From Cloacibacterium caeni (lineage in GTDB: Bacteria > Bacteroidota > Bacteroidia > Flavobacteriales > Weeksellaceae): DNA of 64,000 bases. The DNA lies in contig NZ_OU015319.1 of NCBI RefSeq assembly GCF_907163125.1, positions 62,001-126,000 on the forward strand, written 5' to 3'. Numbering within the stretch: the stretch's first letter is position 1; each line of letters begins with the position of its first letter. A program made the position numbers and the translations under genes. Below the pieces are notes generated by a model. That model was given only the letters and a program-made list of their open reading frames with translations, had not been told where the DNA came from and did not search any database. Shown in pieces: positions 10,545 through 64,000 of this stretch.

Positions 10545-10576
10545 TGGATTGTGGATGCGTCGATTTGTTTAGTCGT
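10545..10576 (+). repeat. Left octamer array of four-helix-bundle cassette 1
   Basis: Starting right after the legB stop, four 8-bp units in strict register: TGGATTGT, GGATGCGT, CGATTTGT, TTAGTCGT. All end in YGT (consensus NNANNYGT or close to it). The last 18 bases (10559-10576) match the reverse complement of 11002-11019 at 15 of 18 positions, so the array has an inverted partner on the other side of the four-helix-bundle gene. The same grammar recurs around the paralogue at 62538-62894. Confidence 0.65.
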
Positions 10577-10601
10577 CTTAAAGCCTTAATAGATATTTAG
10601 A

Positions 10602-10961
10602 ATGAGAATATATGGTTTTGAAAAACTTGAAGTATGGCACGATGCTAAAAATCTAGCTGTTTTAGTTTATCAAATGACTGATTCATTGCCCAATACAGAA
10701 AAATTTGGTCTAGTCAATCAAATTAGACGAGCCATTATTTCTGTTTCATCTAATATTGCTGAGGGATCTTCAAGAAGTACAAAAAAAGATCAGGCTCATT
10801 TTTACACAATGGCTTACAGCAGTATGATAGAAGTTTTAAGTCAACTCCTTATTTCTTATGAATTGGGGTATGTAAGTAAATCTAAATTAGTTGAAGTGAG
10901 ACAAGAGATTGAAAAAGTGACTAATAAATTAAATGCACTGAGAAATTCTTTAAATTTATAA
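10602..10961 (+). CDS. Four-helix-bundle protein (S23 / intervening-sequence protein family)
   Basis: 119 residues, all helical, matching the four-helix-bundle family known from 23S rRNA intervening sequences. Family marks: FEKLEVWHDAK, VNQIRRAIISVSSNIAEG (the IRRA...SNIAEG core), then AYSSMIEVLSQL. The function of free-standing members is not established. It interrupts the legionaminate operon between legB and legC with 57-78 bp spacers, while neighbouring leg genes overlap, so it looks inserted. A paralogue with the same core is at 62538-62894. Both are flanked by inverted arrays of octamers. It has no obvious role in sugar synthesis. Confidence 0.85.
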   Translation: MRIYGFEKLEVWHDAKNLAVLVYQMTDSLPNTEKFGLVNQIRRAIISVSSNIAEGSSRSTKKDQAHFYTMAYSSMIEVLSQLLISYELGYVSKSKLVEVRQEIEKVTNKLNALRNSLNL

Positions 10962-11001
10962 TTAACCATTTTGCCGATAGGTATGTTGTAGATTCGAATT
11001 A

Positions 11002-11033
11002 ACGACTCAACATCTCGACAAATAAACAAAAAA
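11002..11033 (-). repeat. Right octamer array of four-helix-bundle cassette 1 (inverted)
   Basis: Read on the minus strand, four 8-bp units in register: TTTTTTGT, TTATTTGT, CGAGATGT, TGAGTCGT, all ending in YGT or TGT. This mirrors the left array at 10545-10576 in opposite orientation. The array ends 6 bp before the GTG start of legC, so it also forms the leader of the rest of the leg operon. Confidence 0.6.
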
Positions 11034-41680: not shown

Positions 41681-41848
41681 ACTTCTTATTAACTGCACAA
41701 TCTGAAAAGATATTCCTATAATTCCAAGCATTTACATCCTTCCCCTATTCTCCGTTCTAAAATTTCCCCTTTCTTACTTTTAAAATTTTACAGTTTTATA
41801 ACTTTCCAACTTTACCTTATATCCTTATATCTACAATCTCAAGTTTCC
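41681..41848 (+). other. Pyrimidine-rich intergenic DNA
   Basis: Between the DUF218 gene and the heptamer array. Strongly C+T-rich on the + strand (runs such as CCTTCCCC and TTTCCCCTTTC) with no open frame of note and no terminator hairpin that I can see. Confidence 0.5.
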
Positions 41849-41953
41849 ATTCTTAATTCTTAATTCTCTATTCTTGGTTCTTGGTTCTTGGTTCTTGATT
41901 CTTGGTTCTTGATTCTTGATTCTTGGCTCTTGGCTCTCGGTTCTATATTCTCT
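41849..41953 (+). repeat. Heptamer tandem array, 15 units of RTTCTTG type
   Basis: Fifteen 7-bp units in strict register. Core units are GTTCTTG and ATTCTTG (three GTTCTTG in a row at 41877-41897, then alternating), with edge variants ATTCTTA, ATTCTCT, GCTCTTG, GCTCTCG and GTTCTAT. The array lies about 50 bp upstream of the -33 region of the promoter for the second glycan set, and has no coding potential. Such arrays can change copy number by slippage; whether this one does is not visible here. Confidence 0.85.
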
Positions 41954-61325: not shown

Positions 61326-62318
61326 CTAGATTTCGATTCTATTTTTATAAAATTCTTCCGTTTCTTCCAGTAATTGATAAAACTCTTCCAAACTTAAAAC
61401 TTGTAAAAATTTGGTTTTGAATTCTTTAAAATGAGAAATTCCACGGAAATAATTGCTGTAATGTTGTCTCATTTCAATCAAGCCCAATCTTTCGCCTTTC
61501 CATTCTGCGCTCCATTCTGCGTGTTGTTTCACGGCAAGAAGTCGGTCAAAAATAGTAGGTTCTGGCAATTTTTCTCCCGTTTCAAAAAAATGTTTGATTT
61601 CATTAAAAATCCAAGGATAACCAATGGCAGCTCTACCAATCATCATTCCATCACAAGCATATTTTTGCTTGTATTCTAAAGCTTTTTCGGGAGAATCAAT
61701 GTCGCCATTACCAAAAATCGGAATTTCAATATTAGGATTTTGTTTAATTTTAGAAATATATTCCCAATCCGCTTCTCCTTTGTACATTTGACTTCTGGTT
61801 CTGGCGTGAATCGTCAACGCTTTAATTCCTGCATCTTGCAATCTCAATGCTACTTCTTCAATATTAATTGTATCAACATCCCAACCTAATCTCGTTTTCA
61901 CCGTAACGGGAAGATGTGTAGAATTTACCACCGCCTTCGTTAAGCGAACCATTAAATCTACATCTTTCAAAACTCCAGCTCCAGCTCCTTTTGCAACCAC
62001 TTTTTTCACAGGGCAACCGAAGTTGATGTCCACAATATCAGGATTTACCGTTTCTACAATTTTGGCAGAAAGCGACATCGCTTCTTCGTCTCCACCAAAA
62101 ATCTGAATTCCTACAGGTCTTTCGTAATCAAAAATATCGAGTTTTTTCCTAGATTTCATCGCATCACGAATCAAGCCTTCAGAAGAAATAAATTCTGAAT
62201 ACATTAAGTCTGCGCCGTGTAATTTGCACAATCTACGGAAAGGAGGATCGCTCACGTCTTCCATAGGTGCCAATAAAAACGGAAAATCAGGAAGTTCTAT
62301 GTTGCCTATTTTTACCAT
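61326..62318 (-). CDS. dusB: tRNA-dihydrouridine synthase, DusB-like
   Basis: 330 residues, FMN TIM barrel with C-terminal helical domain. Marks: LLAPMEDVSDPPFRRLCKLHGADL, SEFISSEGLI, QIFGGDEEAM, DINFGCPVKKVVAKGAGAGVL with the catalytic Cys in FGCP, VKTRLGWD, LTIHARTR, GNGDI, DGMMIGRAAIGYPWIF. Reduces uridine in the tRNA D-loop. The TACCTTTG box five bases upstream of the ATG suggests a leaderless message. Confidence 0.93.
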   Translation of the reverse strand: MVKIGNIELPDFPFLLAPMEDVSDPPFRRLCKLHGADLMYSEFISSEGLIRDAMKSRKKLDIFDYERPVGIQIFGGDEEAMSLSAKIVETVNPDIVDINFGCPVKKVVAKGAGAGVLKDVDLMVRLTKAVVNSTHLPVTVKTRLGWDVDTINIEEVALRLQDAGIKALTIHARTRSQMYKGEADWEYISKIKQNPNIEIPIFGNGDIDSPEKALEYKQKYACDGMMIGRAAIGYPWIFNEIKHFFETGEKLPEPTIFDRLLAVKQHAEWSAEWKGERLGLIEMRQHYSNYFRGISHFKEFKTKFLQVLSLEEFYQLLEETEEFYKNRIEI

Positions 62319-62322
62319 TTTG

Positions 62323-62330
62323 CAAAGGTA
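62323..62330 (-). promoter_or_regulatory. -7 promoter box of dus (TACCTTTG, minus strand)
   Basis: Minus-strand TACCTTTG ends 5 bases before the dus ATG at 62318, so transcription would begin at or next to the A of the start codon. The -33 region falls inside the octamer array beginning at 62341. Confidence 0.5.
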
Positions 62331-62340
62331 GTTTTTTTTG

Positions 62341-62421
62341 TAAAATCGTAAAGTTGTAAAACTGTAAAATCGTGAAACTGTTAAGTTGTTAAACTGTGAA
62401 ATTGTAAAATCGTGAAATTGT
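62341..62421 (+). repeat. Left octamer array of four-helix-bundle cassette 2 (ten units)
   Basis: 62341-62420 is exactly ten 8-bp units with no register slip, e.g. TAAAATCG (three times), TAAAGTTG, TAAAACTG, TGAAACTG, TTAAGTTG, TTAAACTG, TGAAATTG (twice). Consensus TNAARYYG, or NAARYYGT in the register used for cassette 1. No coding potential. Nine inverted copies lie at 62953-63024. Confidence 0.9.
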
Positions 62422-62537
62422 TATTAATCAAATAAAAAAAATCCGATAATTTTTTTACAATATGCAACTTTATGAGCTGATTTTTGCTTTTCAACAAATA
62501 AACCATTTAACAGTTTTAAGATTTAATAAATTCACTG

Positions 62538-62894
62538 TTATTCTAAAGACTTATAAAATGAGTTTAATTGATTGGTAATTAATTCAGTTTTTTCTCTTAA
62601 TTCAATATATTTTTCTTCTGAAATAAAATCTAAATCCCAAGAAAGAATTAGAAAATTAATGACTTCAATACTAGTGCTATATGCAATATTAATAAATTTA
62701 GATTTATCTTTATTGGTATTTCTTGAAACTCCTTCTGCAATATTAGCAGTGATACTTGTACAAGCTCGTCTAATTTGATTTGTAATTCCAAATCTTTCTT
62801 CATCAGGAAAGTTTTTGGTAACTTTATAAATTTCTTTGACCAATTTCCTTGCATTTTGCCATACTTCTAATTTCTCAAAATAAAATGTGTACAT
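62538..62894 (-). CDS. Four-helix-bundle protein (S23 / intervening-sequence protein family), copy 2
   Basis: 118 residues from the ATG at 62894 (MYTFYFEKLEV); an upstream ATG at 62945 would add 17 residues that are not part of the family. Marks shared with copy 1 at 10602: FEKLEVWQNAR, NQIRRACTSITANIAEG, AYSTSIEVINFL. All-helical; function unknown for stand-alone members, family known from 23S rRNA intervening sequences. It sits alone between dus and an outer-membrane gene, framed by inverted octamer arrays at 62341-62421 and 62953-63024. Confidence 0.87.
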   Translation of the reverse strand: MYTFYFEKLEVWQNARKLVKEIYKVTKNFPDEERFGITNQIRRACTSITANIAEGVSRNTNKDKSKFINIAYSTSIEVINFLILSWDLDFISEEKYIELREKTELITNQLNSFYKSLE

Positions 62895-62952
62895 AGTTAT
62901 AGTTTTTATAATTATTATTTGATTTTTCAGAACTTCATAACCCAAGATTAAA

Positions 62953-63024
62953 CAGTTTCACGATTTTACAGTTTAGCAGTTTCACATTTTTACGATTTTA
63001 CAATTTCACAACTTTGCAATTTCA
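62953..63024 (-). repeat. Right octamer array of four-helix-bundle cassette 2 (nine inverted units)
   Basis: On the + strand, nine 8-bp units in register: CAGTTTCA (twice), CGATTTTA (twice), CAGTTTAG, CATTTTTA, CAATTTCA (twice), CAACTTTG. These are the reverse complements of the TNAARYYG units of the left array. The array ends 5 bp before the stop codon side of the outer-membrane gene (63029). Confidence 0.88.
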
Positions 63025-63028
63025 CAAA

Positions 63029-64000
63029 TCAAAAACTCGCTCTCACTTGTACACTTCCAATATGAATTGTTCTTTCGCCAGAATTTCTACCTTCGTAATT
63101 CACGTTGAGTTGAAGGAAAGAGTTTAATGCTTGTTGAAGAATTACACTCCAAACTTGATTTTTGCCAGCTTTTAAACCATCGAGCATTTGATTTCCTACA
63201 ATACTGAAAGCATTTCCCGTAAAATTGTTGTTGATAAAACTGAAATTTCCTCTAATAGACGTTTTTTTATTTTCCCATTGCACGGTTCCTGTTGCATCGA
63301 AGGTTTTTAGATATTCGTCGCCATCTTTTCGGTCTTTTATTTTGTAGGCGGTAGAAACTTCGGTTTGCATACTTTCCGAAAGTTTGTAAATTAATTTTGG
63401 CTTCGTTTCGTAGATGTTCAAAATGTAATCTCTCGTAGAAAATAATTGTGATGAAGATTGATAATTTTGCAACTGATTTTCCCAATCTGCACGGAGATTT
63501 TTATTAAACCAATATCCAAAATTGACCAAATGAGTTTGCGTATTTTTCTTTTCGATGCTGAAGTTGGCATTCACCAAATTTTGATTGTCGATGAAACGAT
63601 AATTTCCGTTCCAACCAGACTTTTCGGTGGGATTGAAAAGTACAGAAAATAGCAAATTCTGATTTTTTAAGATTTGATTATTTTCGGTTTTAAATGGATT
63701 AAATTCTAAAACTCGGCCTTCTTTATAAAACGAATTTTGAGCGTTCAGCGAAATATTGAAATTCCAACGTTTCAAAAACTGATTTTCGGAGTTGAAAACG
63801 ATAGAAGGATTCACAAAAAGGGAAAGTTGTAACTTATTTTTGTTCGAAGGAATGTATTTCACTGTGTTGGTATAAACTCTGATATACTGCGCCAAATCTA
63901 CATATTCTGCAATTTCGAATTCATCTAATTGCTGAATTCCGTCGCCATTATAATCCGTCCATTTGTAAATTCCTTGCCCGTCTGTTACTTTCAGATACTG
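63029..64000 (-). CDS. C-terminal part of a large outer-membrane beta-barrel-type protein (5' end outside window)
   Basis: The frame is open from base 64000 (first codon CAG) to the TGA at 63029, giving 323 residues of an incomplete protein. Near the visible start is DYNGDGIQQLDEFE, a calcium-binding-like DxNxDG loop, followed by AEYVDLAQYIRVYTNTVKYIPSNKNKL. The rest has alternating hydrophobic/polar short strands (LNAQNSFY, GNYRFIDNQNLVNANFSIEKK, FGYWFNKNLRADWENQLQNY; ends GSVQVRASF with an aromatic last residue), typical of outer-membrane barrels. No function recognised; the protein family is common in Flavobacteriia with a DYNGDG repeat before the barrel. Confidence 0.7.
   Translation of the reverse strand, partial: QYLKVTDGQGIYKWTDYNGDGIQQLDEFEIAEYVDLAQYIRVYTNTVKYIPSNKNKLQLSLFVNPSIVFNSENQFLKRWNFNISLNAQNSFYKEGRVLEFNPFKTENNQILKNQNLLFSVLFNPTEKSGWNGNYRFIDNQNLVNANFSIEKKNTQTHLVNFGYWFNKNLRADWENQLQNYQSSSQLFSTRDYILNIYETKPKLIYKLSESMQTEVSTAYKIKDRKDGDEYLKTFDATGTVQWENKKTSIRGNFSFINNNFTGNAFSIVGNQMLDGLKAGKNQVWSVILQQALNSFLQLNVNYEGRNSGERTIHIGSVQVRASF

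Follow-up and report, generated by a model that had tools for sequence, protein, structure and literature searches.

The S23-type gene at 62538-62894 of the window (the whole 64,000-nucleotide stretch of DNA analysed here, from a Cloacibacterium caeni genome of 2.98 Mb in one contig) lies between two inverted arrays of degenerate octamers, and it is suggested here that gene and arrays together form a minimal mobile hairpin element, comparable to the intervening sequences (IVS) of 23S rRNA, in which a pentameric S23 protein reads the repeat unit. We would put the probability of this reading at about 0.6, with binding and movement as inferred parts of it. A preliminary description of this DNA had proposed that gene and arrays constitute a mobile or structured unit, and this is supported by the retention of period and inversion in relatives, by a predicted paired fold and by the existence of both filled and empty sites. 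Across many loci the length of the repeat unit appears to follow the lineage of the S23 protein.

At the window locus the left array (62341-62420, forward strand), which is on the 3' side of the S23 gene, consists of ten unbroken octamers that all fit TNAARYYG with no slip of register. The right array (62953-63024, reverse strand), on the 5' side, has nine inverted octamers, three of which differ from TNAARYYG by one base, and a tenth, weak unit extends to 63032 and overlaps the stop codon of the adjacent gene. Scored with a matrix built from these same units, the left and right arrays reach 99.4 and 85.9 bits, the chance maximum over 20 first-order Markov sequences of 64 kb each being 19.6 bits with the same matrix, and TRF, which is untrained on these units, reports period 8 for both. 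Consensus matching, bit scores and TRF period thus confirm the earlier count of ten octamers on the left and nine inverted octamers on the right without a slip. A weak inner octamer run (62495-62534, reverse strand), found immediately 3' of the S23 stop codon and also present in the congener G001 (L043), scores 18.4 bits, below the chance ceiling, or 21.1 under a second scoring. The pairing of arrays that had been envisaged for the transcript is indeed predicted, with 64 base pairs between the arrays (62341-63024, reverse strand) and the S23 ORF in the loop; the RNA fold of 62335-63035 has an energy of -147.8 kcal/mol (z -4.91), and none of 20 shuffles was equally stable.

This unit is located between two protein-coding ORFs and outside any 23S rRNA gene, and the 64-kb window gave no Rfam match at gathering level. 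Both neighbours are on the reverse strand and co-directional with S23. The downstream neighbour (61326-62318) is dusB-like, a name read from its translation only, and is accompanied by the sequence TACCTTTG at 62323-62330, which we take to be a -7-like box. Upstream is a gene (63029-64000) to which an outer-membrane-protein-like label is given by inference; it runs off the window and ends 5 bp from the nine-unit array, and the arrays extend nearly to the ends of both neighbours. No ORF listed between the arrays is longer than S23, and the remaining ones are of 41 and 68 aa.

The enclosed gene (62538-62894, reverse strand) encodes a protein of 118 aa of the S23 / 23S_rRNA_IVP type. It matches the PF05635 profile with an E-value of 1.8e-36 (125 bits against a cut-off of 33.8) and TIGR02436 with 116.7 bits (cut-off 24), and its AlphaFold2 model is a four-helix bundle with a mean pLDDT of 96.2, so that profile and model agree with its initial identification as an S23-like four-helix-bundle gene. 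S23 matches are found in 81 of 118 sampled Bacteroidota genomes (E <= 1e-12), in up to 14 copies, and we know of no established function for S23/IVS proteins. Judged from dN/dS in three pairs of congeners (0.04 for G000-G004, 0.13 for G000-G001 and 0.02 for G001-G004), the window S23 is under purifying selection, and such selection at a fixed site argues for a protein that is useful to the host or to persistence of the element, beyond any role in moving it. The structures closest to the model are 2gsc and 2rld (2gsc_B, TM 0.94), each with five chains listed, and the next-closest fold is that of Avd, a protein of diversity-generating retroelements (DGR; 4dwl_D, TM 0.79/0.87; Foldseek E 0.02). 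The homology of PF05635 and Avd is noted, and the paper on 2GSC is cited as describing five four-helix bundles, in the portion of PMC10053308 available to us. Similar as the folds are, the Avd profile hits of the window S23 remain under threshold, at 29 against 80 bits for Avd and 33.8 against 40 for bAvd. No reverse transcriptase is linked to the gene, the only RVT_1 match of the genome being at 1084418-1085101, some 960 kb away, and a reverse-transcriptase partner for S23 is accordingly unsupported by linkage.

The locus can be followed in relatives. An S23 orthologue in C. rupense is 97% identical, and three of seven genomes of the genus (G000, G001 and G004) carry the window S23 upstream of the dusB-like gene, between inverted arrays. 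The window S23 is missing from this site in the other four, where there is a spacer of only 23 bp (G002), about 90 bp that we read as inverted heptamers without a gene (G005 and G006) or other sequence (G003). The site is also occupied in a genome of another genus (G010, 75% identity) and at Chryseobacterium and Kaistella loci (L093, L094), and the presence of the element at one place in several genera implies infrequent movement. Between G000 and G004 the S23 proteins are 95% identical, yet the array units have been rewritten on both sides. Other loci of the window subfamily precede genes read as rsmE, cysN, cysS and an apparent tRNA gene, and many loci of the same subfamily elsewhere are still framed by 8-bp units of different sequence. 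A search of relatives with flanks, as advocated in the preliminary description, therefore recovers the 8-bp period and the inversion in many of them, and the comparison of orthologous sites that it also advocated finds places with and without the whole unit, both at the dusB site and on cyanobacterial plasmids.

We extended the comparison to 208 distinct Bacteroidota S23 loci, the 222 in hand having been reduced by one locus cut at a contig end (L135) and by 13 repeats (11 plus L166, the same as L059, and L179, the same as L004). The same period was called on both sides of the gene in 96 of these, of which 48 were at 7, 47 at 8 and one at 9; three had differing periods, 77 an array on a single side and 32 no array. 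Thinning to 135 dissimilar proteins left 55 loci with the same period, three differing, 55 one-sided and 22 without arrays. Both sides agreed in 42 of 67 loci of the window subfamily, in five of 11 paralogues from this genome, in 16 of 23 paralogues from its relatives and in 33 of 107 loci of the phylum sample, which is made up of best-scoring places and is not a random draw. By comparison, only four of 371 ordinary ORFs had matched sides at period 7, 8 or 9, these controls being drawn from the window, with its two S23 genes excluded, and 20 evenly spaced 20-kb pieces; of 1457 control windows taken from other positions of the S23 loci, periods 7, 8 and 9 were called in 49, 9 and 9, respectively. 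A scan of the first 39 S23 loci with the consensus of the window locus had found arrays only at the closest orthologues (L001 and L043-L045). The implication that paralogues have no arrays was overturned by a consensus-free lag test, in which lag 8 was best in 61 of 76 loci upstream and in 61 of 76 downstream (nine of the 76 being repeats). Array lengths close to five units (medians 4.7 and 5.4) were set aside as support for a pentamer, because the detection window favours about that length.

Unit length (7, 8 and rarely 9) tracks the S23 protein lineage and, on the evidence of the protein trees, is heritable. Ten period changes are required on a tree of 205 S23 proteins, a period being available for 165. 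When the set was thinned (difflib similarity under 0.80) and 14 cyanobacterial proteins were added, 118 rows at 7 or 8 required nine changes, as against a minimum of 25 and a mean of 29.6 in 200 label shuffles. Many forks of the thinned tree are unresolved and the periods of its plasmid rows were assigned by eye; the 205-protein tree, like the partner-swap and duplex tests described below, still includes two repeated loci. Switching does occur, as exemplified by a cyanobacterial S23 with 8-nt units (L299) amid nearest rows that mostly have 7.

The two sides of a locus are related by inversion, and they generally agree more closely when compared in inverted than in direct orientation. An inverted match of at least 18/24 is found in 92 of 96 both-sided loci and in 13 of 200 null pairs. 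The unit sequence differs among loci, yet, so far as partner swaps can indicate, it tends to agree between the two sides of one locus: at period 7 an array matches its own partner better than the mean of eight swapped partners in 88 of 95 loci, and better than every one of the eight in 60; at period 8 the corresponding counts are 68 and 25 of 75. Even where no period was called, the own partner exceeds the swap mean in 22 of 27 loci. Predicted RNA duplexes between the flanks are more than 5 kcal/mol stronger than those of shuffles in 67 of 95 loci (period 7) and 63 of 76 (period 8). In the first test of inversion at period 8, 30 of 47 loci conformed. Of the 17 exceptions, 16 do contain, at some position of the 250-bp flanks, an inverted match reaching 18/24 or more, the best direct match being higher in 12, tied in four and lower than the inverted in one, and most have upstream arrays in both directions. 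The two arms agree only weakly in the order of their units, p<0.05 being reached in 12 of 92 loci, and faithful copying from arm to arm is for this reason not claimed. Where the S23 frame is at least 90 aa, both neighbouring ORFs are co-directional with it in 173 of 203 loci and both are opposite in nine, a bias that fits an element living or retained in the sense strand of mRNA.

The window contains a second S23 gene (10602-10961, forward strand), 46% identical to that of the window locus and situated inside a polysaccharide cluster. By eye it has about four octamers per side in inverted orientation. The upstream array (10551-10582, forward strand), which reads GTGGATGC GTCGATTT GTTTAGTC GTCTTAAA, is under the automatic threshold with a lag-8 score of 18/32, lag 9 scoring 20, and the downstream array (10996-11027, reverse strand) has a lag-8 score of 22/32.

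Filled and empty sites are seen most clearly on plasmids. Sixteen loci, 15 cyanobacterial and one from Azospirillum, were fetched from 28 plasmid records with a relative. Their flanks match better in inverted than in direct orientation in 13 of the 16, with the direct match better in L298 and L308 and a tie in L309; by eye the units are heptamers in 12 and octamers in two (L299 and L306), with L294 and L309 ambiguous. In L296 a unit of 428 bp is present between two genes that, in the empty site L311 on a plasmid about 98% identical, lie next to each other without it. The junction has a 5-bp overlap (GTAAT), a possible target-site duplication, which comes from this one close pair and may be microhomology. 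In L297, which has this insertion too, the left array lacks 14 nt, the length of precisely two heptamers, and the corresponding sites in L312 and L317 are occupied by what we read as a decayed S23 remnant and by an inverted heptamer hairpin without a gene. In the further pairs L299/L310, L295/L314-L316, L303/L316, L300/L319 and L320, and L301/L321, the S23-less relatives have short spacers and no array. Empty plasmid sites with spacers of 13, 12 and 3 bp are array-free, which argues that the arrays arrive together with the gene. Two pairs are less clean, the spacer itself differing in L302/L313 and the relative having 245 bp of other sequence in L305/L318, and the insertion in L300 lies within the last codons of the upstream gene. 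Some plasmid S23 genes stand between genes of an operon, namely cas6/cas4 (L298 and L305), cas10/cmr3 (L299) and, in antisense, nrdB/nrdA (L302); S23 elements are thus located within CRISPR-Cas operons in three of the 16 loci (L298, L299 and L305). In L305 an unusually long heptamer array of 275 bp (GTGACAG/GGAACAG, positions 1115-1389 of that locus) was observed on one side of the S23 gene, and its partner, the right array, extends into the 5' end of the annotated cas4. No relative was found in phage records (tblastn, E 1e-5), and no relative was confirmed in IMG/VR with two seven-residue subfamily patterns, a search that reaches close relatives only.

An S23-type ORF is found in many, not all, 23S rRNA IVS. 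The parallel with these sequences drawn in the preliminary description is borne out by one case, an Azospirillum lipoferum plasmid (L304) in which an S23 frame with no stops over the match and with inverted heptamers on both sides lies in a 23S rRNA gene (Rfam RF02541, 2540 bits). In the Coxiella IVS, tandem heptamers (GACAGAT) directly precede the S23 ORF, the RNase III site is at the first heptamer, and removal by RNase III without religation is reported, according to the part of PMC4990558 that was available. From L304, examined directly, and Coxiella, known to us through the same partial source, it follows that at least these intervening sequences have the same architecture at a different site, and the arrangement looks to be shared by some classical 23S intervening sequences. 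The IVS of Coxiella, Leptospira and Alphaproteobacteria share with the window unit an S23-family ORF looped out by a terminal complementary stem and, in Azospirillum, the inverted heptamers; unlike them, the window unit stands between protein genes and its ends are 8-bp arrays.

Arrays also occur without S23. The pattern TNAARYYG has 125 matches in the genome compared with four for a reversed-pattern control, and the matches listed form at least 26 clusters, which are separated by more than 1 kb and include the window locus. The preliminary description would have been refuted by arrays equally common without the gene, and here the outcome is partly against it, since octamer arrays are also gene-less, even in congeners that lack the window S23. 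Octamer hits number 77, 85 and 49 in the carriers G000, G001 and G004, and 57, 23, 13 and 8 in G005, G003, G006 and G002, which are without it; the association of solo arrays with S23 presence in the genus is a trend only, with G005 a clear exception. In 219 sampled intergenic stretches there were 20 calls at period 7 and 14 at period 8, three of these calls coming from the two S23 loci of the window. A 464-kb sample (the window plus 400 kb) has 193 intergenic stretches of 60-600 bp, in which arrays were called 21 times, with the window locus included and any stretch callable at both periods. Three of the 21 have an inverted partner (at least 16/20) in the same gap without S23, and seven have a direct partner; the three gaps look like non-autonomous forms.

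Several individual arrays were also observed. At 41775-41944 of the window, between two genes, an octamer run is followed by about 13 heptamers (TTCTTGG/TTCTTGA); this gap contains no S23 gene, and a clear inverted partner is lacking. A pair of inverted octamer arrays separated by six bases (L025:1501-1602, G000:C1:378398-378499), about 2.3 kb from another S23 gene, looks like a gene-less hairpin form. Two near-identical ten-unit octamer arrays in the same orientation, 4.5 kb apart (L035 and L039, from G000:C1:1581678 and 1586133 on), suggest segmental duplication or array copying.

Other repeats invite comparison. Short tandem heptamer repeats of cyanobacteria are known as STRR. These and the TAACTGA repeats are short tandem units of fixed length between genes, and the heptamers on either side of cyanobacterial S23 genes broadly belong to this kind, whereas the window unit is of 8 bp and in a Bacteroidota genome. 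According to the parts of the paper at hand, TAACTGA heptamers occur in Beggiatoaceae, cyanobacteria and Bacteroidetes, no mechanism of transmission is seen, and S1, Csp or Csr proteins are suggested as binders (PMC4679880); the terms 'S23', 'four helix' and '23S rRNA' are absent from its main text. Heptamer-like sequences such as ttgtcagttgtcagttgtca lie between genes of the Nostoc hyp operon (PMC2408588), and neither of these two papers, in the portions available, ties heptamer repeats to S23. A further likeness, in inverted ends and gene-less look-alikes (L317 and the sampled hairpins of the window genome), is to MITEs and REP-RAYT elements, which have inverted ends and short gene-less forms. 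Terminal inverted repeats as in MITEs or IS are present here, but they take the form of counted units in arrays, with no fixed terminal sequence, and, unlike those elements, no transposase ORF is seen in the list of ORFs between the window arrays. In a literature search limited to titles and the beginnings of abstracts, no report was found of S23 genes framed by inverted arrays outside rRNA, nor any description of unit length following S23 lineage.

The mechanism we favour is of an element of about 0.4-0.7 kb, composed of one S23 gene with two inverted arrays whose degenerate units have a fixed length; it would reside between genes, usually in sense, and would probably be transcribed along with its neighbours. 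The two arrays would base-pair to give a long RNA stem whose loop contains the S23 ORF, a structure like that of the 23S IVS. S23 pentamers may then bind the array, each protomer taking roughly one unit, which would set the unit length; processing of the stem by an RNase III-type enzyme may free the neighbouring mRNAs, again as in the 23S IVS; and slippage together with template switching between the arms may rewrite the arrays while an S23-compatible step is kept. Sequence comparison shows how gene and arrays are laid out, that the arrays are inverted and match each other within a locus, that unit length is inherited with the protein lineage, that the whole unit can be present or absent at orthologous sites, that in one case an array changed by two units, and that gene-less look-alikes exist; S23 binding, processing of the RNA stem and the way of movement are inferred. 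An action of S23 on the repeats is not shown and rests solely on the way unit length correlates with the lineage of the protein, there being no binding data. This lack counts against the element model, as do the 32 of 208 loci with no array, the 77 of 208 with an array on one side, the switches of unit length, the three plasmid loci in which the direct match is better or equal (L298, L308 and L309), the weak agreement in unit order, the many octamer arrays of G005, the fixed position of the dusB-site element and the lack of a linked reverse transcriptase.

Another possibility is that the arrangement is regulatory. TRAP, a ring protein on periodic RNA, provides a model for an array-binding regulator, and S23 could be such a regulator, with its own arrays for autoregulation and the solo arrays as its regulon, spread by ordinary horizontal transfer and recombination with no mobility of its own. 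Purifying selection at a fixed site (dN/dS 0.02-0.13, three pairs), the filling of the same site in several genera and the many solo arrays with the window-type unit in the genome would all be expected of such a module. We nevertheless regard it as unlikely, as gene and both arrays have been gained at several unrelated sites on closely related plasmids, decayed and gene-less versions exist at one plasmid site, and an S23 frame lies within 23S rRNA. That selection on the protein, together with the retention of unit length while unit sequence turns over, also speaks against an inert relic, meaning a selfish IVS-like insertion that is currently inactive and whose stem is tolerated between genes; stops inside the match in some copies (for example L158, L163 and places in G358 and G378) and the decayed remnant in L312 would suit a relic, which we hold to be improbable. 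Little more can be expected of the notion that the arrays are ordinary intergenic repeats at which S23 genes merely prefer to insert or persist. The frequency of arrays without S23 in the 219 intergenic stretches (20 at period 7, 14 at period 8) lends it some weight, but the empty plasmid sites are array-free, unit length tracks the protein, and matched two-sided arrays are rare at other ORFs (4/371).

The reading of the locus as a mobile hairpin element can be taken further, as a tentative possibility that we think somewhat more likely to fail than to hold. S23 lineages of pentamers would each bind nucleic acid at an exact step, of 7, 8 or 9 nt, and would thereby dictate the array step, and the 23S IVS, many intergenic heptamer and octamer arrays of Bacteroidota and the heptamers of cyanobacteria would be autonomous, gene-less and decayed footprints of one ancient mobile-hairpin superfamily, with arrays rewritten in steps set by the protein. 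S23/IVS proteins are common and structurally solved, and unit length links them to tandem heptamers, for which, in cyanobacteria and other bacteria, no partner protein or mechanism was found in the partly available literature. If this link is true, some 23S intervening sequences would be one target site of a wider element family, and the pattern as a whole is pointing to an unrecognised family of mobile hairpin elements.
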